A stretch of DNA of 64,000 nucleotides from assembly GCA_022818135.1 (NCBI GenBank), contig JAFMSR010000001.1, positions 960,421 through 1,024,420 on the forward strand. Reading direction: 5' to 3'. This stretch comes from Saxidomus purpurata (Eukaryota; Mollusca; Bivalvia; Venerida; Veneridae). Shown in pieces: positions 2,930 to 61,908 of this stretch. Each line of letters begins with the position of its first letter. Position 1 is the first letter of the stretch. Made by a program: the position numbers and the translations under genes. A model generated the notes under the pieces. It was not told the DNA's origin. It saw only the letters and a list, made by a program, of their open reading frames with translations, and did not search any database.

Positions 2930-4270
2930 AGTTTCAAATATGAATCGATAGAGTATTCATAAATTTCAACTTATATGAAACCAACAGACATGAAGTGTGG
3001 GGTATTTTGTCAGAAGGATACGAAAAGGATGTAGCCCATTTAGGTAGTGACAATGGCCCCATTGTCGTGAAACATTCTCTATAGATACTAAGGGTTCTGA
3101 GCTTTGTAAGTTGAACATTGATTCCTTAGTAAGTACCTTCTAACCGGTTTTCATCAACTTTAACAATAATGTTGAGTTTCAACAACGGCAAATCCTACAC
3201 GCTTTGTTCCTTCGCTGAAACATAGCCAAGCGAATTCTTATTTCACAATTTGGACATTAGGTTCCCTTTCTCTTTGTGGTTGAGCTGACTCTGATGTTAT
3301 GAAATGAATTCCATCTACAGACCACGAATAGAGGAATAGTGTGCTTCTCTTCTACACATAATGAAGTGTGTTGTCAAAAAAGCAAAATTTATAACGCTTA
3401 CCTTTCGTCGCGAGGACAAATCAATTCGAGTTGTTTGCTTCACAAATGCAGATTATGCATGTGCTCATTGGTAATTGGCTCTTTTAAATTCACCAGGATA
3501 ACGACGTCTTGACTTTTCAGTTGTGGGACGGTTTGACATAGCAATGCTAGTCAGATTGATTTAAAACTTTGTCTGTTAATTATTCAATCACTCGTGCAAA
3601 TAAAACAACAGTTTGGGTCGATCCGACCTTCGTTCCTCACAAAATAAGTCTTAAAGCACCCTATACAAAAGACTAATGAAACTCTAAAACATGGCGCTTT
3701 AAGAAAAGCCAACATTCCACATTCACATTATTCACAGATATGCTTTAAAACGAAATGCTTTAAAATGTTGTAATTAACATGGGTTCTTGTAAAGCAAAAC
3801 ACAGTCATAAGTAGATTGGGCATCCAGCTGGGATAGGGTTGCAATTCAAAAACGTACCCCACCTACCTGTGTTAGAACATAAATGCCGCAACTTCCTTTC
3901 GTAGTAAATTTAAATGTTGTCCTTATTTTTCATAACTTGTGTGCGGCTTATACATACAGCGTTCTTTCAGAAAAGTACAAAAAAAAATGGAATTATATGG
4001 CCGTCACTTATGTGATCACCTGGAGTGGATCGGGTGATCATTTCATTTTCTGCATCTTTACAGCTCTTGGAAACCAATCTGCTCATTCAAGGAACGCTCA
4101 ATTAACAGCCCTTGAATTGCTAAAGATCAACAATACAACGCGTTATTCAAATAACAAAATATAAGCTGCAAGTTTATTCTTGTCTTTGTTTTAAGCTTGG
4201 TTCTTCCTTTTGCATGAGAAAAAACAGCATTGTGCAATGTATTTTATATCTAATATACAACGTAGAAGAA
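2930..4270. other. Non-coding stretch upstream of the receptor fragment
   Basis: No frame here shows a recognised domain. I looked for the upstream ligand-domain exons of a Cys-loop receptor (WxPD..L.N region) and did not find them. The frame at 3883-4164 is hydrophobic but unsupported. Confidence 0.4.
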
Positions 4271-4275
4271 TACAG

Positions 4276-4592
4276 TGGATCTGAACGCTCTAATCAGTGA
4301 CGAAGGAAACATCTCAATGTATGTGCCAATAATCACTAAGTCGTTCTGTTTTGTTAACGAGAGCCTTCTCAAGGAAGACACGGACATCCTGTGCACTCTC
4401 AAGTACGGATCGTGGACGTACCCAGCGCAGTCGCTGGATCTGAGGCTCCTGTCTGAACCGGAGTTATTCTATAATACGAATCGTGATTGGAATGTTGTCA
4501 ATGTAACAGCAGAAAGACACGAGGTGGAGTACGACTCCTCTACAGGAACATATGTACACATACAGTACACCCTTTGGCTTAGACCCATATAA
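4276..4592 (+). CDS. Cys-loop ligand-binding-domain exon fragment (nAChR/AChBP-like)
   Basis: An exon-like open segment preceded by an AG at 4274-4275 encodes the second half of a nicotinic-receptor-type ligand-binding domain. Seen in order: DEGNISMYVP and ITKSFC (compare DGxVxWVPPAIYKSSC), a Cys-loop, then CTLKYGSWTY (hallmark LKFGSWTY), DLRLLSE, DWNVVNVTAERHEVEY and IQYTLWLRP. A stop follows directly where the first membrane helix would begin (RRxPLFY). Oddities: the Cys-loop has 14 residues between cysteines rather than the usual 12-13. The usual FPFDxQ is replaced by LLKEDTD. The vicinal Cys pair of agonist-binding alpha subunits is absent (SS at that place). It may be the last exon of a secreted AChBP-like protein, or a receptor pseudo-exon. 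No companion exons were found nearby. Confidence 0.62.
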
Positions 4593-34399: not shown

Positions 34400-36220
34400 A
34401 TTTATTTTTTATTGATATATTTATTATTTAAGGAGTCAGTTGTTGTCCATTAATTATCGGTTTAAAAGCAGGTCTCATCAAGGAAAACAGCACCTTCTTC
34501 AAAATATTTGCAACATATGAATTGTTTTTGGCCTGGGGACTGAAAGTCCCCTAGGCCTAAGTTAGCATACCACATTTCAAACACTGCAGACAATTTAACT
34601 GTGCTATGTGCGAATAACAACTGTAAAAATGCGCTATGTGAAAGTAGTGCAAGACAGACCATTGAATGGCGCATATGATAAGAACATATTACAAATAAAA
34701 AGAGTACATACAACTTCAAACGATTGCAGAAAGGTATATAGCTTACGGGCTACATTACACATTTTTTATGTTTTAGAAATTAATGCGCTGTTAGCCGATT
34801 ACGGAAGATAATCATATGCATATCACGGAAAAGTACGGATATTTACGGAAATTTACGGAAACGTACGGAGCTCGATATAAGAGTTTGTAGTTTGATTTTT
34901 AAATTTCCGATGTTATTTCATTGACAACTTTGTTATTTACGAACGATTACATGTATATTTACCTAAAAATAAATTTCTCTAAAAAAAAGATATTATTTTT
35001 ACGTACATTCCCGAGAAGGAACTCACGTGATCAAAATCACCCGCCATTTATCGAGGACGCTGCATGTCAAGGCCCAGTGAACGGTTTCACCGATTACAAC
35101 TACTGTACAAGGTAACCCAGAATCATTTTTGGTTTTCTCTGTTATACACATTGTACAGTACTGTATTTATATTTCATTGCTGGTATTGCTTTGTTTATTT
35201 CTGTTTCAAGGTCTTGTCCTTGGTACACAATAATTTTCGATCCACATCATCAGATCATCATTGAAGTTGTACAAAGCGCATATCGAATTATTTTTATTGG
35301 TTTTAACAATTTATAATGTTGACTATGTGATTATTTTTCATTTAACGTACGTTTTATAATAAAACAAACTTCCCTGCCACCCATATATTTGTGAATCATT
35401 CATTCTGTGTCATATATTGAATTTCGTCGGAAAATACATTAAAAACCGAGTAAAACAACTTCAACGTACCTGGTATATATGCTTGAAAACGGGTAAAGCC
35501 ATATAAAAGACAAAATATAAAAAAGCGGTATTTAAAGTTTTGGAAGCCAGAACTATTAATTATATGATGACACCCACTGGAATGTCATGTCAATCCATAA
35601 AGATGGACGATAAGATTTTAAAAGTCAATGATTTATTGAATAAGTTTTTTTTATTTAATTTTCTCAAATATTATTATAAAAATCTGGTTTAATTGTAAAA
35701 CCGTGTCTGTTTATCTTGTTTGAAAGTCACGTGTCATTCCAGTGTGTGACATCATGTAGCTTCGTGCACGACACATTTCTCAAATAAATCTTCGTTCAGT
35801 ATTTAATAATTTGAAAGACAATCACTTTTTTCACCAGGATTTCACCACATCTTATTTTGAATAAAATAAACAGTATATTAACACTACAATTTGTTGTAAA
35901 GAGCAAGAAAAATCATTCTATGAAATAATATCCGTTCCAGCGCAGTTCAACGTCTAATAAACAATGATTTCAAGTGCTGATACGCATTAATTAAAAAACG
36001 TCATTTGTTCGAGTGTTTTATAACTACGCATGAGAACAACAAACAGTTGTTTATTAGACAGTATAACAGCACTGAAAAGAATAATAAGAAAGAACGGGAT
36101 ATTTAGTTATATAGTCAAGTCCATAAAAATTACACAAATAACTAAGACACTAAAAATTTAGAAAAAGAATTAAAAAATGATAAATATTATTCCTTTACCT
36201 CCATTTATTATGTTTATTAT
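34400..36220. other. Intergenic, repeat traces
   Basis: TACGGAAA short repeats occur at 34,820-34,870. A small coding-like island around 35,010-35,112 ends in a GTAACC donor and contains CQGPVNGFTDYNYC, but I could not link it to any gene. Otherwise nothing seen. Confidence 0.35.
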
Positions 36221-36224
36221 CTAG

Positions 36225-36888
36225 GCAAACCAAGACTCGCACTGGAGAAGATGTTCGTGTTCGACGAAAAGGAGGCAAGCCAGCCATGTTTGCAGAACCT
36301 GGAAAACCTCCAGAGCAGTGCCCTGTCCACATATACAAGGAATATGCAGACAGACGGCCCATCTCAGCCCTACAACCAGACAGCCCTTTTTACTTGGCAT
36401 GCAATACAATCCGGTCACGGCCACTTCGTGCCACTGAGCGTTGGTTCATAAATGGCGCAATTGGTGCGAATAAAATCTCTGGTATCATGAAAACAATGGT
36501 AGCTAATTCTGAACTACCATCTCTTGTCATTAAAAGGTTAACCAACACCAGTGTTCGAAAACATGTTTGCCAGACACTACTTAACAATAATATTCCCGAC
36601 TCTGTTGCAATTCATGTTACCGGGCACAAGAATCCTGGCACTCTAAACAATTACAGACAGTTAAACAACGAACAAAAGTATCAAATGTCCCATATGCTGG
36701 CAAACTCTAAATCAACAGAAAAGTCCGTCGCGAAAACACATGAATCTGCAGAAAAGGCACAGTCCCAGATAGAAGTTCAATCTTCTAACATCATGGAAGC
36801 TAACATTAATGAAAAAATACATGCCTTGTTTGCTGGCAGCACTATCAATGGTGGAACCTTCAACATAGCTATAAATATTCCCAAGTAA
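36225..36888 (+). CDS. Crypton/DUF3504-type tyrosine recombinase C-terminal exon
   Basis: An open exon begins after an AG (36,223-36,224) in frame with QTKTRTGEDVRVRRKGGKP and continues through RCPVHIYK-like (QCPVHIYKEYADRRP), FYLACNT, TNTSVRKHV, GHKNPGTLNNYRQ and a tail ending LFAGSTINGGTFNIAINIPK. This matches the catalytic part of the domesticated or Crypton tyrosine recombinases (DUF3504; KIAA1958/ZMYM-like). Seen active-site residues: Arg in VRK (36,556-36,558), His in GHK (36,625-36,627) and Tyr in NNY (36,652-36,654). The His usually preceding the Arg (HSxRK) is Thr here. The N-terminal part is missing, so it is either a last exon whose partners I cannot find or a fragment of a mobile element lying between CaM-A and CaM-B. 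Confidence 0.72.
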
Positions 36889-47235: not shown

Positions 47236-50200
47236 ATGGTAAGTGTATCTTAAATTTCTTATCCCGAGGCGAATGGTGTCATTTTGTGAACTGTTCCATA
47301 TTTAATCCATGAAATAGTCAATTTTAGTACTTGATGTACCTCTATCTGTGGTGGGGAAGTTTAACTGCAAAGAAAGTAAGAAAACAAGTACTGATGTGCG
47401 GGGAGCATCGTCTTGGTCTTTACTTGAAGCCATGAAAAACACTGTCATCGAATGACATTATACTTTTAAATACACATGTCAGAATCGACAAGCACTTCCA
47501 GACAGTGCAAGTATTTGTAACTTATCTGCTAACTCATTTTGTGTAAAGGGTACAAAAATGCGATGCCATATAGATAGATCACTACATTTAATTCTAGTTT
47601 ATATCATACGTGTTTTTCTATTTTGAATTATTTTCGCCTGGTGTGAATACGAACTCTCAAGCAGCTATTCTCCTGAGATACCATCATGAAATACGTATAT
47701 TTAACTTACCTATATAAAACTACAGTATGATAGGTGTTCCATTAACCTACTTCTACTGTAGGTATTTTTATCTCAATATTTCTTTCAGTAAGGATTTTTA
47801 CAACTTTCTTTTAATTAACATGTGGTGGCTGTTTTCGTTTGATTTTATTGTAGGCTGAGTCGCTTTCTGAGGAACAAATTCACGGTAATAACTTGTTCAC
47901 CTTCACCTTACAATTCTAGCTGGTGTTTTAATTACTCTAATTTTATCATAGATTGTAATTACATACGAATTATTTATTACTAATACATGTATACATAAAT
48001 ACCTGAGTGTGCTTGTGAGAATAAATCTTGGATATCAGTTATGCGACCTCACTCTATGTGTTTTTGATATGACTTATAGAAAAATTAATGTTTAATTGTA
48101 TCTAAGGAAGATGGTCGTCCTTCTTTGTATGACTGGATTCGAACACAGGATCTCCGTTGAATCCGTGTCATTTTTTACATAAGTAATCTATAGGCCTACA
48201 AGGTTTTCCAACATTGACGCTAAAGTACAAAAAATTATAGCAGTTTAGAATGAATAGACAAACCAAGTAACTAGGTCGTAACTATAAAATGGGAAATTCA
48301 ATTGTCTTTGATTTACAATACAATCCGTTCATCAGTTGATGCAATATCAAGTTTCAAGAACACCAAAGTAATCATGTCAAAGTCGAAGATAATATGAAGG
48401 ATATGTTTGATTATATTTTGTGTATTACTGATTTATTGACTATTTCAATTGACCAGAATTTCGAGAGGCCTTTAACCTGTTTGATAAAGACGGAGACGGA
48501 TGTATCACAACGAAGGAGCTGGGCGTGGTAATGAAGTCCTTGGGACAGAAACCTACAGATAATGAACTTAAAGACATGATACACGAAGTCGATATAGACG
48601 GTATACTATACTTGAAAACTTCTCTGAAAATATCGATTAAGTATCATAGAAGCTAGACATTGATCAGCCCGAAAATACATCGTAGTTAACACTTAAATTG
48701 AAATTTAAATCAATGAAATATTAAAAAAGAAAAAAATGCATTAGGCTGATACCCTGGCAGAAGAAGTATCTTTATCGTTTTAATCGGTTGATCCGTTAGA
48801 TCAAAATATCTAATTGTAATATATTAATTGCCTACTCGTATGTGCGATGAACGTAACTATGTTCATTTAAGGCATGCCTACCTTCAGACGTACATTACAG
48901 ATGTATACATGTATAGTTTTATCAATAATTGGTTCATCTCATTTTCTACATGTGATTTTTTTCTTCCCTCCCTCTCAAATACAATTCCCGCTTTTATCTT
49001 TCCCAATGTTTCTATGCAAAATTCAGAAGAAAAAACGATTACCGGTAGTGCGGCAACACAGCATTAATTGTGGGTTGTTTTTTTTCTCGTTTAATAAACT
49101 TTTTTAAAATTCCTTGATATTAATCAAGGCTTAAAAATGAAGACTTTACGAAGTTCAAAGCGAATTGTATAATATAAGCACCTATACTTTTGAGAGCGTT
49201 TCAGAGAACTAGATATTATTGATGTTTACTAACGTTAAGAGGTTTAAATAGAATCTTTCTACAGCTGCAAACAGTTGTGTTTGTGGGTTTTCAAAGTTTA
49301 TGATTAACATATGCGTTTGCTGTATATCTATTTTTTACTTACTAGAAAATGCATAAGCATTTAATGTTGCAAATGCATATTTATTGATTATGTGAAGGTT
49401 GTCTTATAATACACGACCTTTAACTATGTATCTTTAAAACAAATAGTGTCAAATTTCATTTAGAACAGTTGAACAGCTGTAACAGTTTACCTTAGGCAAT
49501 GCTTAACCCATTTATTGTGTGTTTCTAAAAAGAGATTTAAAATTTATTTTGATTGTGATGCAAATTATTCTTTTGTTTCAGGGAATGGAACTATAGACTT
49601 CCAAGAATTCCTGACAATGATGGCAAATAAGATGAAAGAAGGCGACCAAGATGAAGAGCTGAGGGAGGCCTTCAGGGTAAGATTCCTATTCAACAACATT
49701 GTACATTTAAAATACACTAGGATTAATACAGCTTCATCGGTCTTGACTTCCATAGTTATGATACCGGTATATTATACACGTTTTGCTATGACTTATACAA
49801 TATACATTGTAGAAGTTAGCTAAATTGACATTCACTTTCAAACTTCTAAACCAGTCATGTGCATATTTAGGTTTACAATTACAATAAACGGAACAGCGGA
49901 ATGTTAAGTGGAAGTTAAGAAACAGTGCAAATCACGATCAGACTGCACGGATTCTATGTTAGAAATATAAACCAATAACAAAATGCATAGCCCATGAACA
50001 GTATGCCCTGTTTGCAAGTCTGTCATGGTCCACAGTGGATATAAAGGCTTGTATGTCTAATGGGAAAGTTACGAGACGTCTACCTAATATCGATAACAAC
50101 ACTGTTTAGGCTTAAGTATACACATGTTCTTCTTTCTTTTCTATCACCGGTATTGTGTACTCAAAATCAAACTTAAACCAAATGTAAGGAAATAACATTA

Positions 50201-51105
50201 AACGTATCAGCCAGATCTGACAGAAATATTCTAAGTAGTTAGTAATTATAATGAAATCTCTTCAAATGCATATATATATATATTTAATTATTAATTGGCT
50301 AACATTTAAAATTGTAACAGGTGTTCGACAAGGATGGAAACGGGTCAATAAGTGCAGCAGAGCTAAAATATGTTATGGCTAACCTAGGAGAAAAATTGAC
50401 TGACGAAGAAGTTGATGAAATGATTAAAGAAGCAGATCTCGATGGAGATGGCCAAGTGAACTTCGAAGGTGAATTATTTAACTATTGTGCGAAAACAATC
50501 CAATAAAATGGAGGACTGTTTTATCAAGCAGACATTGTGTCGGATATACTGCAAATGATACCCTTACCGCATTGTCCTATCAAAAGTCATTTAACATCAA
50601 ACGGCTGCGTAGTAGTGATGTTAAATAAGATATATGTATAATAAACCTGCGTCATGCGTTCGTCAGCACGTTTCTGTTCGAAATTACTTCACAAAAATCT
50701 TTATTGCTCAGACATGCAATACCTTAATGAATTAAATTATACTTGACTGGTTATTTCATGTATTCAAATTGGTTGAAGTAGTACTACTTCATACTATCTT
50801 CCTGGTTTTCTCGTTGTTGCTAAGCAACCAACGCTTCAAAATTCAAAATATTATACTAAATTTTCGTAACTAACAATATAAGCACAAAGATGTCCACACA
50901 CAACACAATGCAGTGTCCTTTCATTGTTTTGAATAATCACAACTACTGTTATACCATCATCTGCAGAAAGTTAACTTTCAAGTGGTTCGATTCCAAAGAG
51001 ACTTTGTAAATTGTAGCAACGTTTTTAGCCTAATTTGTAGTTATTTTATTTTGAAATATTTTCTTTATTTCAGAATTTGTTTACATGATGCAGACAAACA
51101 AATAG
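47236..51105 (+). CDS. CaM-C: calmodulin-like four-EF-hand protein
   Basis: Exons: 47236-47238 (ATG alone, donor GTAAGT), 47854-47884, 48457-48600, 49582-49676, 50321-50468, 51074-51105 (150 aa). Internal exon lengths 31, 144, 95 and 148 equal those of CaM-B, so these two share the full intron pattern. The four loops are intact: [36 protein letters not shown] and [12 protein letters not shown]. It starts [20 protein letters not shown] and ends [10 protein letters not shown]. The central linker is [20 protein letters not shown]. It should be a full Ca2+ sensor. It is close to, but clearly not identical with, animal calmodulin, which is normally almost invariant, so it is a calmodulin-like paralogue. 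Confidence 0.93.
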
Positions 51106-53910: not shown

Positions 53911-55423
53911 TCAAATTTTGTCCATCTCCTTGAAGTACAACTCGAGCAGTCTACAAATATCTGGTACAGGGTACTGTGTGAAATCAGCCACCGCCATATG
54001 CCTGAAATATATTGTAAATGTATTTAAGAAAATGCGCCATGAAATGTTGTGATATAAGTATTTGTTTATACATATAAAACCATGCAAATAAAGCACACTA
54101 GCCTATATGTTTTAAGATTTTCAAGACAAACATGATATACTGTGCAGTTTGATTCTCGCTTTCAGATGTAGAATATTTTGTCTTTTATTTCTTATTTTTA
54201 TTTTAGCGGAGGCTAAATTGTATTCATCTTTGATATTGAACAGACATTTGAAATACATTATTACAATTTAGTTTGAATAGAAGCAGTGATCTTCAAAGTT
54301 CAAAACAGTCCGATAACAATTTTTTGAAAGTTGTTGGCTTTCATATCGTTCTTGAACGTGTTACAAAAATATACTCTGAACAACTTTATAACTGTTTGGC
54401 GAGCAGAAAAATACAACTTCGATATTGAACTTACCTTTGTTTTCTGTACTTGCTCTGGAGCTCCCCCTGGTGATCTTGAGAGAGTTTGTAATCGTCATAT
54501 AGACTTCTTAGACTTCCCAGAAAGTCTTCCAACTCATAACCAGATCTTTCAAGCAACTGCTTTGTCTGCAAAGGAGAAAATTGCAATTGGTGTCTTTCAG
54601 GGACTGACCTCCAACAACCAAAGTATTTCAAGGTAGTTTACTGATACAAAACAAGTTTCCGCTTGAACTAAACGCCTTTCTTTGAGACACAAATTTGATT
54701 TGCAACTGTTACCTTGTATCTCATGTCTAACACAGTCACATCTTAATTACCATCAATATATCTTCAATGTAGTCACAACATAGAAAAATGTCCTCCATTC
54801 AATTGAGTATTATTTTATTCAGCAGACGCCTAAGTCTTATAATTTAACGGAATTCCAATAATGTCATTCAAAGCAACTTAAATGTATGCAAGATATAGTG
54901 TTCATAAAATTGGTATTTCAGAATCATCAAATCTAGCAAAGGATTTAAACATGACATATTTACAACACAAGATTCGCATATTTCAAGCCCATTTATAATA
55001 ATTGCCCTTCTGAAATTCAGGGATCTGCAATTGTATAACATTTAATGGCATATTGGAGAAACCATTCAAATGCTGAGACTTTTTCTATCTCGAAAAGTGA
55101 GAATGCCTGATAGCCGATGCCACGAAAAGTGAATGAAAAAGAATAATTGAGAAAACCTACCCAAGGTGGAAGTCCAAGACTATATCTGGCAATACATAGT
55201 GCTGCTGCGGCTACCTGACTTGGTCGGTAATTTAAATAACGCGTTCCCAACGTCGTTAGTTCGACCAGGTACTGAAATGTAGTAATCATATATATGTTTG
55301 ATTAAAATAGTCAATATCTATGGTTTTAGATTATTCAAATAAATCGAACAATACAAAATACATACAGCCTTATAACATCTAATGAAAATGTATCTTGAGA
55401 ACGCAAAATTCTGAACTAAAAAG

Positions 55424-55493
<70 letters not shown>

Positions 55494-57024
55494 CCGATAG
55501 ATACTGATTTCATATGAAAATAAGAGCACTGAAAAAAAAACAATGTGTAAAACCTACCTTCGTCAAAGCTCGCAGTGTATCATCAGCACTACAGACATCG
55601 AGCAGTTCTTCACAAAACCATGCCGCAGTTGGCACGTGAAGATTAAAATCTAACGTGGTCAGAATGAGCTTCTCCATTCCAATGACTTGTTGTTTTGTGT
55701 AAGCGTGTCCTATTGTTAATAGCCACACGTCAATACTGTTGTAACACATCACTTCGAATTTCCTGAAATCGGTAAATTACAAAATAATAAAGCCTTCAAC
55801 ATCTAGAGGTATGCATGTACATTTTTCATGTAATTAATTTTTCAACTAAGAATGTTTAACTTCAATTAAGTAACCTTTCATTGAATGTCGTGACGTTGTT
55901 CCATACAACAAGTGCAAAACATTTAATGACAGAAGTTTCTGTACGATTGGTCCAAAACTGTGGAATGAACTGCTGTTAGAATTACGAATATGTAAATCAC
56001 TCGATACTTTAAAAAAAAAATAAGACACTGTATTTTAGAACCTTCATGGCATTTTTTAAAATTTTATGGGAGTTTTTACATTTTACTACTAATATTTTAA
56101 GGTTTGTTGTATCAAATGTACAACGCTATTGAATATGTCATTGTATAGAAATAGGCGTTTTATCAAATTGATCAGTTTCAGTTTCAGTTTTCATAGATAT
56201 AGATCTCAAATAGTGTGGTACAAGCTTCCGACTTGTAGCTGTCAAGCTGTGGATTTGTCACATAAAAGCAAGCGTTGCACAAACTGATATCTATGAAATA
56301 CCCGGTACGAACACTTTTCTAGTGAAATTCAAATTTCAAATAACGAGGAACAGGAGAGCTTGATCTAGTAGCAGAAAACTAAAGAAAACCACTAACTATT
56401 CTAGAAATATGATGTAGAATCTAGGCAACGTATACAATACTTACGCGACGCTGAACATACACGTCACGGCTACAAGCTTCATCATCTCCTTCTGTACACT
56501 ATAACGAGAAAGAAATCGGTCCATCAAGTTGACAGCCAGTAGTAGGAATGATGTATGATAGCCTGCCATCTCAACTATATGCATCATCCAGTTAACCTCT
56601 AGCTGTCTTCGGCCTATGGTGATGTCTGTTTGTCTTCTCATGTATTCTGGATCTGCTCGATGCTTATTCTGAAATAACAGTTTACATGGTCACAAATTGT
56701 TATGCTTATTCTGAAATAACAGTTTACATGGTCACAAATTGTAATGCTTATAGTTTACATGGTCAGTAAATGTTATGCTTATTCTGAAATAATAGTTTAC
56801 ATGGTCAGAAATTGTTATGCTTATTCTGAAATAACAGTTTACATGGTCACAAATTGTAATGCTTATTCTGAAATAACAGTTTACATGGTCAGTAAATGTT
56901 ATGCTTATTCTGAAATAACAGTTTACATGGTCAGAAATTGTTATGATTATTCGGAAATAACAGTTTTTTATATGCATTTGTTGGACGTTCTGCGTTTATA
57001 CTCGTAACTGGATAATACTAACTA

Positions 57025-57072
<48 letters not shown>

Positions 57073-60000
57073 AGTACCTCAGTATCACGCATTAGTTTAT
57101 ATGTTTCAGCATTGTAGCCCTCAAATGAGTTTCTCTTTGTCTTGACTATATGGAATGGTCGGGATTTTGTGTTAGGTTTGTATGCCAGGGGTGTGTATTG
57201 ACCTCCGAAGCAAAGGTATCTCCACCTTCTACTACCGCTCCTGGAAGGGGAGACAAACTCTGATGCACCAAACTCTTTGCATTTCTCCTCTAACACGGGT
57301 ATGTCCTGTTCTGGGTATTTTAAGGTATTGGCTATCTCTAGGTACCTGGTGATGGTGAAAAGAGCAAGAATCATAATTTATACTAGTTGTCGCATTTAGT
57401 CTTAAACTGTAACAAAAGTTGAAAATAATATTCGATTTTGTTAAATTGGTCACTTTCTTTTCTTTATAGATTAATAATTTCTATAACATCTTACTTTTCT
57501 GCACTATATTTTCTCAGAATGCCCTGTCTAGTCTGATCCTCGGTACTTTGGTAGAAAGCGCGTGACTCAGTAATACATTTGATGCAAGGCATGAGATCTT
57601 CAGGGAGGTAGTGTGATCTTTCCCATAATTCCAGAGTCTGCACAAGATAAGAAGATTTTCTTTTAACATTCAATAAAATGTAACACTGGCAAATTCAAAT
57701 ATAATGAAAAGACCGATGGTTATTAGTTATCAAAGTGTTTTTTTAATGTTTAAAAAGTATAGAGAGTATTGCAATAACTCTCTTATTTACACATACATGT
57801 ACTACATATATTAAATAATATACCTACCCATACAGGAAGTCCTAAATTATGTCTGGCTAGACATAGTGAAGCTGCTGCTATTATACTAGGGTTTACACTG
57901 AGGTAGGATACATCAAGCATTGTCATTTCTGCTAAGTACTGTAAAAAATGTAACACTGGTTACCTAGCATTCTTTTAAATGGGCAAGTCATGTCAATAAT
58001 GATGTAAGTATATACAAACCGTATATACAAGCCGTATATTAAAGTACATTTTGTATATAAATGTACAAAACCAGATGGAATAACATGCCTGTTATGTCGA
58101 TTGACTTAATATCGAAGTATGGCTGTAATTATGATTAATTGTAAATTATATCACATGAAAGGCAGATACTAAAAGACTTAAGATGTGACTGTCGAAAAAT
58201 GGAAAAAAGGTCTTACCATTGTCATGTATTTTAGTTTCTCGTCTGCTTCACAGACGCTCAGCAACTCTCTGCAGAACCATGCTGCAGTAGGGACAAACAT
58301 ATGGAATTGCAGTTTCTTCAGTATCAGTTTCTCCAAACCAAATATTTGGTCACTGATGTAGGTACCAGCTGTAAGATACACAAAGTCATCTGCTGCTGCA
58401 GCTTCATCGCCCTTCTCAACCTTCCTGTAATCATAAAGCATACATTTGATATTAGACTACTGATACTGTTTTTGGTATTTTGACAGTATCTCTTTATAAA
58501 TTATAGGCCTTTGCCCAATAACAGTTTTCCCTTAGCAGTGCTTTAGCTATCTGCTTTTGATGATTCTAATGAACTATTTAGTAACGACTAGTTTATTTCA
58601 ATGTTCATTTTTACTATAAGTATTGTACGATAAAGTATTATACATGTAGTATTATAGTACTTATAAAGCATGGGAGTCATACTGGGGTCTTGATGAGTTT
58701 CCAACGGTTGGCCGGGACTATAAACAGTAAAAAAAAGTACTAATAAAAATTCTTTGAATCCCAAAACACTTCTCTTCAAACTAGTCGGTCGTTAAATATG
58801 AACAAATACATTTATGTATCAGTATGGTATTTACCCTGCAATAAACATACAAGTCACGGCCACCAACTGTAGATTGTTCTTCGTAACGAGACATTGTGAC
58901 AAAAACCTATCAAAGAAGTTCACGGACAGCACCAAACTTGTATGTGACATCTCGACATAGTCGGCAATTTCCGCCATCCACGATATTGTTGCGCCTCGCA
59001 TCTCACTGGTTATATAACTCTGACGTTCTAGGTAGCAGTGGTCAGCTTTGTATTTATTCTGCAAAGTCATATTTAAAATAGTTCGGGGCAAAAAAAGTGA
59101 CTGGGTCTAATACAAGTTACACTCTAATTACTACAATTTAAATTTGAATAGGCGCAGTGACACCGTGTTCACCGCAGGGTCGGGTTTGATCCCCGCCAGT
59201 GTCATGGCGGTACAATACATAAATATTTCCACATTACCTACTCACTCTTCGAGATTGATTTCATCTGGAAAGAATCGCGAGAGCGATAAATTTAATTTGT
59301 TTAACTTGTTTCGCAATCGAGAATAAATAAATTAGTATTTAAAAAATAATTTCAATATTCAACTTGTTAGATATTAGTCCTTTGCTATGTTTTGCAGCAA
59401 ATCAATAGAAAGGTGAGATATTCATTCGTGCATAAGCTATCATTGACTAATTACCTCATTTTGGCGAAATATCTGGAACGTCTCTTTGTCATATCCCTCT
59501 CGGTTTCTTTGTAATCGAGCTGCAATGCGTAGTCTTTGACACTCGCTACTTTCAGGCTGGGTGTCTGTGCTGCATTCCACTACACACTCCTTGACGTCTG
59601 CTACTGGGGAACAGCCTAAAAATGTCGCTATGTAGCCGTCATCATTCTCTGTGTGAACATGTGGTTTCTCGTTTTCATTTTCTGTTTCTGTGCAATGTGG
59701 TACTAAACTGCTTCCACAAGTAGCTACAGCTGCAGCTCGTTCGTGGATACCATTGGTGATGAGATCTTCGGAAGTAGAAAACATTGGAAGCCTTGAATCA
59801 TCTGCTTCTTTACTCAGCAAAGTCGTGTTTTCATCGCTGGTATTGTAAGAAGAACTCTCCACTGTAGCATGGTTTCTGTTTTCTTCAAACATTGGTATAA
59901 ACCTGCTTCCACATGTTGCTATTGCATTTTCTTGCCTAGCGCCAGTTCTGGTGGCATTGTCAAACCCAACATGATTCTGACTTGGATATGCTGAATGCAT

Positions 60001-61908
60001 TTGCATCATCTTTCCTTCATCTGTTGTCACAGTTACCATATGCTGTGGAGGTTGATAAGTGACAGGTAGGCCTCTATCGAATAAAACCATATGTGATTTC
60101 TTATTTTCTTCTGGTGTTGTACAAGTAGTCATTGCCATGCCTCGAGAGAATCCACCGTGAACGTGGCTTGCGTATCGCAAAAACATTGACAGGATGTTCC
60201 TCTGTTGTGCGCTTATTCCACTTCCGGCAATCATTCTTTGCTGTGACAGTAATATCGATGACCGTCGATTCTGCATTTGTATAGCACGATATAAGCTCCG
60301 CATTAAGTGTCCTGAAAACATCGGCATCTGGCCACCCACAGGTAACAGTGTCGTCCTATGATCTGGTGGAAGTACGCTAGCTACTATTATCACATGCGCT
60401 GAAGATATGAACAACGGATGCCTGTCAATGGAAACATCAGTGAAATACACTAGGTGTGGTGCAATATCTGTTGAACATCCGTGTGATGAACACATGTAAA
60501 TCATTCTGTCGTATTTTGCAGTGCATACCGGATGTACATGCGCTGAACATACTGCCATCATATGATTGCAATTACTTGTAGCAAAACTGTACACGTGCAA
60601 CCACTCCCGATTACTTCGAGTTACCTTATGAGTAATGCTTTCCATAGCGGTTACATTTTGCAGATTCAGACATACACCAGATAAAGAGAAGGCAGTAATG
60701 ACCACACTCGGTGTTGTTACTTCTGACCGCCTTATAACAGATGCAATAACTACCGGTGACATCAAAGTTGGTAACACAGGTCTCGATGAAGACGACCGAG
60801 CGAGTGGCACGACTTCATATGGCGATACTGTTGTTGGCACAAGTGCAAAATCTGCGTATGCAAGTGACCCTGTCATCGCTGGCTGTTCTGCAGTAAACAT
60901 CATCGGCCTTGCTTCGGACAACATTGTGAGGAACTCTATTATCTTTGGCAGCAACATGGACAGTGAGCTAGCAGTGGACATGAGCGCTGATGACTCAAAA
61001 ACATTTGGCGGTCTGACAGATGTTAACCCCGCAGATGTAGGTGGTGATTGATATAGGGACTTCACGGATGCAAAGAATGACATAGCATCAAACAATTGCA
61101 CTGGTGGTTTCCTTATCGAAGATCTCACAACTGATACTGGCGCTGACATATCTTTGCACATCAATGCCTGTGTCTCATTCACCGTTGCTGTTAGATCTGG
61201 CGATGCCATGGATGCGAAGACAAATCCAGCTGCATATAAGTGCATGGGTGATCTTGTTATCAATGGTGTTATTGCAGATTGGAACAACTGTCTTGCTGCT
61301 GACATAGAGGTTGCTGTATTTACCCTCACTCCGCAAGCAAAGGTGGATCTAACTGGTAACATCAGAGCTAATGGTTCTGCTACTGAACTCGTGAATACTG
61401 ATCTAAGTGAAAGATCTCTTGGTAAGCTCATCCTGATAGATGGAATCACAGCTGCTGTTACGGCAATTTCATTTGAAGACACCTTGCAACACACAAGACC
61501 AGCGGTTGGTGTGATAATCGGCAGGTTCTGTCTGCTACAGAATGAGCTGAGGGCTGCTGCTGCTGCTGGAAACATCACACTCAATGACACTGTCACTGCT
61601 GGCGGAATCTTTGAAAACACTTTGCAGCTTTCAATACTGAGTGGCATCTGGGTCTTGGTTTTGACATGTTCCTCTGGAGTTGCACGTACCACGTCTGTGG
61701 AATCTGGGAAGAATGTGCTCCAGATAGAGAAATCCGTCTGGGTATTCTGGATGTCTTGCTTTGCACGAGTAGCACGTGCCACATCTGTAGAATCCGGGAA
61801 GAATGCGCACCAGATAGAGAAATCCGACGGAGTAAGAACATGTGGTGACGGCAGATAAGGCTCATATCCACCTGAAAATGCAGCGTGATATGCTGGTCTT
61901 GACGGCAT
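53911..61908 (-). CDS. Double cyclin-A-like protein with long N-terminal exon
   Basis: Eleven exons, read from the right: 61908-59455, 59058-58835, 58424-58217, 57938-57828, 57637-57495, 57345-57078, 56668-56445, 55762-55558, 55271-55161, 54565-54435, 54001-53911 (1,389 aa). All junctions are GT/AG with matching phases. An in-frame TAA lies two codons before the ATG. Residues 1-800 are Ser/Ala/Val-rich with no domain I recognise; residues 29-88 are two 30-residue repeats (DFSIWxxFFPDSTDVxRAT). Two cyclin modules follow (about 802-1060 and 1120-1385), each with both cyclin folds. Best likeness is cyclin A (EYMRRQTDIT; RSGYELEDFL). The five residues conserved in cyclin boxes are kept in both: R839, D868, L883, K894, E924 and R1157, D1186, L1201, K1212, E1241. 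The MRAILVDW docking patch is altered. Likely a CDK partner, if expressed as one chain. Confidence 0.87.
55424..55493. repeat. (GATA)n microsatellite in cyclin intron 8
   Basis: About 17 uninterrupted TAGA/GATA units. Confidence 0.97.
56660..56970. repeat. 42-bp minisatellite carrying copies of the exon-7 splice acceptor
   Basis: The unit starts with TGCTTATTCTGAAATAACAG, followed by TTTACATGGTCACAAATTGT. It begins at 56,661; 56,703; 56,745 (shortened); 56,776; 56,818; 56,860; 56,902 and 56,944. On the minus strand most units read TGTTATTTCAG then AATAAGCA, identical to the true acceptor and first bases of cyclin exon 7. Extending exon 7 into any upstream unit puts a TGA in the required frame within seven codons. 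Confidence 0.9.
57027..57070. repeat. (TAA)n microsatellite in cyclin intron 6
   Basis: About 14 TAA units ending a few bases from the exon 6 donor (57,076-57,077). Confidence 0.95.
59140..59215 (+). repeat. tRNA-derived SINE fragment in cyclin intron 1
   Basis: A-box-like TAGGCGCAGTGAC and B-box-like GGTTTGATCCC (59,183-59,193) lie at roughly tRNA spacing. The rest of the tRNA fold is not convincing. Confidence 0.45.

Follow-up and report, generated by a model that had tools for sequence, protein, structure and literature searches.

Cyclins are known as single-module CDK partners, and the locus described here raises the question whether one gene can encode two complete cyclin modules in a row, or whether two neighbouring genes have been joined on paper only. 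The locus lies on the minus strand of the window, i.e. the stretch of 64,000 nucleotides that was analysed (C1:960421-1024420, on a contig of 70.6 Mb that also carries a second copy of the gene, within a genome of 1.135 Gb and 4,232 contigs). It appears to encode a single protein with two complete cyclin-A-like modules, in a gene that is conserved in two copies, and on the sequence evidence we consider this architecture, together with its origin, highly probable.

A single chain with two modules, each of them subject to selection at both loci, would constitute a natural double cyclin in an animal lineage. Such a protein lets one ask whether one cyclin chain can join two kinases, and it provides a case for a cyclin that works with an altered docking patch and without the known destruction boxes. 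Taken together with an unrelated diatom protein (see below), it suggests that tandem duplication of whole cyclin modules can occur repeatedly.

Gene model and cyclin modules

Splicing of eleven exons (Table 1), from window position 61908 down to 53911, yields one open frame: the coding sequence of 4,170 nt comprises 1,389 codons and a stop, there are no internal stop codons, and ten of ten introns start with GT and end with AG. A preliminary description of this stretch had reported the uninterrupted 1,389-codon frame, exon lengths of 224/208/111/143 nt in module 1 and 224/205/111/131 nt in module 2 with the same phases, and a linker exon ending in GYNAETYKLMRDTE; frame, lengths and phases were all reproduced, and the linker exon had been placed correctly.

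Table 1. Exons of the double cyclin gene and the repeat array at its exon 7 acceptor (window coordinates)
Feature	Position	Strand	Remarks
Exon 1	59455..61908	-	long N-terminal region; GYDKETFQIFRQNE at its end, before module 1
Exon 2, 224 nt	58835..59058	-	module 1, start of cyclin fold
Exon 3, 208 nt	58217..58424	-	module 1
Exon 4, 111 nt	57828..57938	-	module 1; same sequence in second copy
Exon 5, 143 nt	57495..57637	-	module 1
Exon 6, 268 nt	57078..57345	-	chimeric: end of module 1, linker and GYNAETYKLMRDTE lead-in of module 2
Exon 7, 224 nt	56445..56668	-	module 2, start of cyclin fold
Exon 8, 205 nt	55558..55762	-	module 2
Exon 9, 111 nt	55161..55271	-	module 2; same sequence in second copy
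Exon 10, 131 nt	54435..54565	-	module 2
Exon 11, 91 nt	53911..54001	-	last part of module 2, with the stop codon
42-bp minisatellite over exon 7 acceptor	56660..56966	-	five decoy acceptors before the real one

Each half of the predicted protein carries a complete pair of Cyclin_N and Cyclin_C, which is a feature of cyclin A (Pfam E-values of 1.6e-33 and 1.1e-23 in the first half, 9e-30 and 2e-23 in the second). According to a profile built in this analysis, the modules occupy residues 805-1064 and 1123-1378. BLASTP aligns the two over 263 columns, 118 of which are identical (45%; E-value 2e-69), a sequence likeness that is far above chance, and cyclin A2 chains top the lists of both modules in a search of the PDB. 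The five residues that had been described as conserved in the cyclin box, i.e. R, D, L, K and E, which we take to be R211, D240, L255, K266 and E295 of cyclin A2, are indeed found in both modules at both loci. The Pfam pairs and the single frame, as well as a second locus with the same architecture, uphold the initial claim of two complete cyclin-A-type modules in one gene.

The first exon is open over 818 codons in the window, and it is also open, within a frame of 846 codons, in the second copy. The start codon is uncertain and may be either ATG 61908 or Met88 at 61647: the former is out of frame in the second copy, with a 1-nt insertion at 61891, and the first in-frame Met of the second copy's open frame corresponds to the latter. 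From 61890 inward, the net indels between the two copies of exon 1 are multiples of three (9, 6, 15, 13+20, 30, 27 and 6), whereas those upstream differ. The constraint on exon 1 appears weak, with a dN/dS of 0.82 for one half and 0.68 for the other, the exception being the final 96 codons of the comparison (0.21). Pfam yielded no family in exon 1 up to an E-value of 1, Cyclin_N2 included, and an origin from a transposon or repeat was rejected, as its only two matches in the genome are the two loci. The 5' half of the exon is overlapped in antisense by two plus-strand ORFs, of 139 and 268 aa (60632-61858); they contain no Pfam family above cut-off and also match the two loci only, and phage records gave no match for the plus-strand ORF. 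A separate antisense gene in this region (61908-60650) was rejected, given that stop-bearing codon pairs between the copies number 5 of 405 on the plus strand versus 0 on the minus strand, and that no Pfam family scored above cut-off.

The second locus and the constraint on both modules

The second copy of the gene lies inverted on the same contig, at approximately C1:498703-507424, about 0.5 Mb from the window gene. Its exons 2-11 have lengths identical to those in the window and GT/AG borders, and both the acceptor and the donor of exon 6 are retained. The introns differ in length (for instance 396 vs 190, 149 vs 710 and 409 vs 950 bp, window vs second copy) and are 67-97% identical over ungapped columns. 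Open and selected frames, differing introns and an inverted position some 0.5 Mb away imply that the loci have diverged separately while keeping the same architecture. A third two-module locus was searched for and rejected: of the 27 matches in the genome itself, 22 fall on exons of the two loci, three on the cyclin A gene of contig C8, and one each on C18 and C15. Likewise, a candidate on C1496, where Cyclin_N matched three times, appeared to consist of the pieces of one ordinary cyclin, presumably of type E.

Between the two loci, dN/dS over exons 2-11 equals 0.173 (dS 0.113). The ratio is 0.151 for module 1 (Fisher p 1.3e-7) and 0.051 for module 2 (Fisher p 2.3e-8), the latter having three nonsynonymous changes versus 13 in the former (p 0.012). 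The linker of 54 codons, with nine nonsynonymous and two synonymous changes (dN/dS 1.28, Fisher p 1), is unconstrained by this measure. Exons 4 and 9 show no difference between the loci, and the dS of the exons falls below the divergence of several introns (identity as low as 67%), so that gene conversion between the loci is possible, and either this or a misalignment of introns may blur the ratios.

A 42-bp minisatellite covers the acceptor of exon 7 (Table 1). Its units repeat this acceptor together with the opening bases of the exon, out of which the array has grown, and the real acceptor stands at its end; the second copy has its own 42-bp array (L009:7129-7755). The AG is retained in five of five decoy units in the window and in 11 of 14 in the second copy. 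Those decoys that read TTTCAG (five in the window, six in the second copy) closely match the real acceptor, and each is followed by six codons and then a stop. In the second copy, about 19 units of 31 bp form a further array, which begins at the donor of exon 5 (L009:5800-6394), and GTAAG occurs 18 times in intron 5 of this copy versus once in that of the window. Either array may tune the amount of two-module protein.

Origin and known relatives

The genome also contains an ordinary cyclin A gene, on contig C8 (modelled exons within 4347059-4350127), the cyclin exons of which measure 224, 205, 114, 134 and 67 nt (67 being the coding part of the last), preceded by an exon that ends in ...YNYLREAE. 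Intron positions and exon borders are common to this gene and to both modules. The modules are 38% (module 1) and 44% (module 2) identical to it, and both lack one codon of its 114-nt exon. A tree of 21 rows unites all four modules from the two loci in a single clade (100/100), next to this cyclin A; their placement inside the animal cyclin A rows has a support of 94/96, which falls short of the program's mark, and the branches leading to the modules are long. Trees in which only one of the modules groups with cyclin A were rejected (p-AU 0.0138 for module 1 and 0.0159 for module 2). The common intron positions and the clade beside cyclin A together indicate that a paralogue of cyclin A underwent a duplication of its cyclin unit within the gene, and the intragenic tandem duplication that had been proposed at the outset is borne out by these data and by the second locus.

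Exon 6 bears on the same event. Its start, KYLEIANTLKYPEQD, resembles the start of the last cyclin A exon, KYHQVSDFTKNPVPH; the frame then reads without stop into the linker and arrives at GYNAETYKLMRDTE, which is like the end of the exon preceding a cyclin. The simplest reading is a duplication within the gene after the split from cyclin A, of which exon 6 would be the scar.

Protein searches were performed with a two-module query of 594 aa (51 matches), with the 1,389-aa protein and its region 1137-1389 (no matches) and with a query of 991 aa (three matches). A profile scan of the 54 matched proteins revealed a single stretch in 52, one module split in two in P0037, and two modules in P0054. 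There is no named mollusc among the 54, several of which are unnamed, and the sensitivity of the search for close relatives is unproven. P0054 is a hypothetical protein of 639 aa from the diatom Thalassiosira exigua in which, as in the window gene, Cyclin_N and Cyclin_C each occur twice within a single chain (Pfam agrees). However, the identity between its own two modules is 58%, as against 23-27% with the window modules, which points to a separate origin or to a fused gene model.

The statement in the preliminary description that known cyclins have one module is too strong in view of P0054 and of the retinoblastoma (pocket) proteins, which, according to the accessible part of PMC2475671, contain four cyclin folds in two tandem pairs per chain, ascribed to successive tandem duplications. 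The latter resemble the window gene in having tandem cyclin folds within one chain. Nevertheless, the window modules derive from cyclin A in the tree, and Pfam up to an E-value of 1 yields only Cyclin_N and Cyclin_C in them, and no Rb domain. Cyclins are defined by one or two cyclin box folds (PMC6170502, accessible part); the window chain would by homology contain four. Diatom cyclins are described as expanded in PMC2872877, the text of which contains neither 'tandem' nor 'two copies'. In the accessible parts of PMC13360074 and PMC3907801, which cover soybean and tomato cases, the 'two cyclin domains' of soybean denote the usual pair, and the same phrase for tomato SlCycB3;1 is left unexplained. 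Searches of an open-licence library of papers yielded no animal cyclin with two modules.

Cyclin A and the window gene have in common the Cyclin_N and Cyclin_C pair, the five box residues and the intron positions, and cyclin A is the nearest branch in the tree. Yet cyclin A has one module per chain, where the window gene has two, and the window gene has an altered docking patch, with no strict D-box, KEN box or Cyclin_N2 detected. Given these differences, the double cyclin would be a derivative of cyclin A and not an ordinary member.

Function, rival explanations and neighbourhood

At seven of the positions that we take to form the MRAIL / RxL substrate-docking patch (positions not derived from a structure computation), the residues are M I L W E L Q in cyclin A, M A T W E L Q in module 1 and R L E W H M K in module 2. 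Judged by sequence, module 1 thus has an altered patch, whereas module 2 has lost most of it. A motif scan of both loci detected neither a strict D-box (R..L..[LIVM].N) nor a KEN box, and the presence of 11 loose RxxL motifs makes a weak degron possible. The cyclin A on C8 has one strict D-box match, and Cyclin_N2, absent from exon 1 up to an E-value of 1, is present in P0002, one of the matched proteins. The choice of substrates by the RxL patch appears altered or lost, as does destruction through the usual APC/C boxes. Among what we presume to be the CDK-contact or CDK-facing positions, K266, E295, L299 and F304 are retained by the two modules at either locus, and the altered ones are I182 (to T, both modules), Y185, L263 (to S, module 2) and F267 (to V, module 1).

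The explanation that we prefer starts from a fast-evolving cyclin A paralogue, in which the whole cyclin unit would have been duplicated within one gene, such that the coding end of copy 1 became fused to the coding start of copy 2 and gave rise to the chimeric exon 6. A later copy of the gene, made as a block, would have come to lie in inverted orientation about 0.5 Mb away, with purifying selection maintaining the two loci. Module 2, being more constrained and closer to cyclin A, would be the better candidate for CDK binding, and module 1 would act as a second CDK-binding or docking unit. The resulting double cyclin would select its substrates and be destroyed differently from ordinary cyclin A. 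At the level of sequence, the architecture, the cyclin A origin, the constraint on both modules and the freedom of the linker are established, and we regard the explanation as a whole as probable, the architecture weighing most. The mechanism itself, namely a tethered double cyclin that binds CDK through at least one module, we infer tentatively. The changes at positions presumed to face the CDK, the clade support of 94/96, the long module branches and the weak constraint on exon 1 count against the preferred explanation. A more elaborate form, in which one chain would hold two CDKs, or one CDK and a docking or inhibitory module, with splicing at the minisatellite toggling between one- and two-module forms, is unlikely.

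The close rival is a single gene for a divergent, non-activating cyclin, the modules of which would serve as protein-binding scaffolds like the cyclin folds of Rb. The state of the docking patch in the two modules and the several changed CDK-facing positions would fit such a role, and Rb proteins contain four cyclin folds (PMC2475671, accessible part). However, the retention of K266, E295, L299 and F304 and of the five box residues in both modules at both loci, under strong selection, speaks against it, and we find a scaffold conceivable but rather doubtful. It is quite improbable that the gene mostly makes a one-module protein, its chain ended after module 1 and the linker by the decoy acceptors of the intron 6 minisatellite. 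These decoys (five in the window, six in the copy) do lead to a stop after six codons and nearly match the real acceptor, and AG is kept in 11 of the 14 units of the second copy; nevertheless, no part of the gene is more constrained than module 2 (dN/dS 0.051), which would be unexpected if this module were mostly skipped.

The possibility of two tandem cyclin genes with separate transcripts finds some room in the Met of KLMRDTE (57092-57090), the sole Met in exon 6, at which a stand-alone module 2 could begin. Exon 6, however, is flanked by an acceptor and a donor and carries the end of module 1 and the lead-in of module 2 in a single open frame; both splice sites are also present in the second locus, and introns 5 and 6, of 149 and 409 bp, reveal no exon of a separate 5' end; we consider two genes very unlikely. 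Least credible of all is a pseudogene, an assembly error or a haplotype duplicate. Although similar loci on one contig can result from assembly, here the frames are open and under selection in both loci, the introns differ in length and sequence (67-97% identity), and the loci are inverted about 0.5 Mb apart on one contig of 70.6 Mb. Judged from the sequences, the second locus thus argues strongly against a pseudogene and an assembly error as well as against two separate genes, and the assembly error that had been named at the outset as a possible refutation is not supported, as the inverted locus keeps the same architecture.

Some further features were observed in the window, in which nothing reached the gathering score of Rfam. 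On the plus strand, an ORF at 36184-36888 has matches to DUF3504 and weak matches to Phage_integrase, and presumably represents a Crypton-like tyrosine recombinase. The same strand carries EF-hand exons at 49473-50506 that look calmodulin-like by eye, and at 4266-4592 an exon-sized frame with the ligand-binding domain of a neurotransmitter-gated channel.
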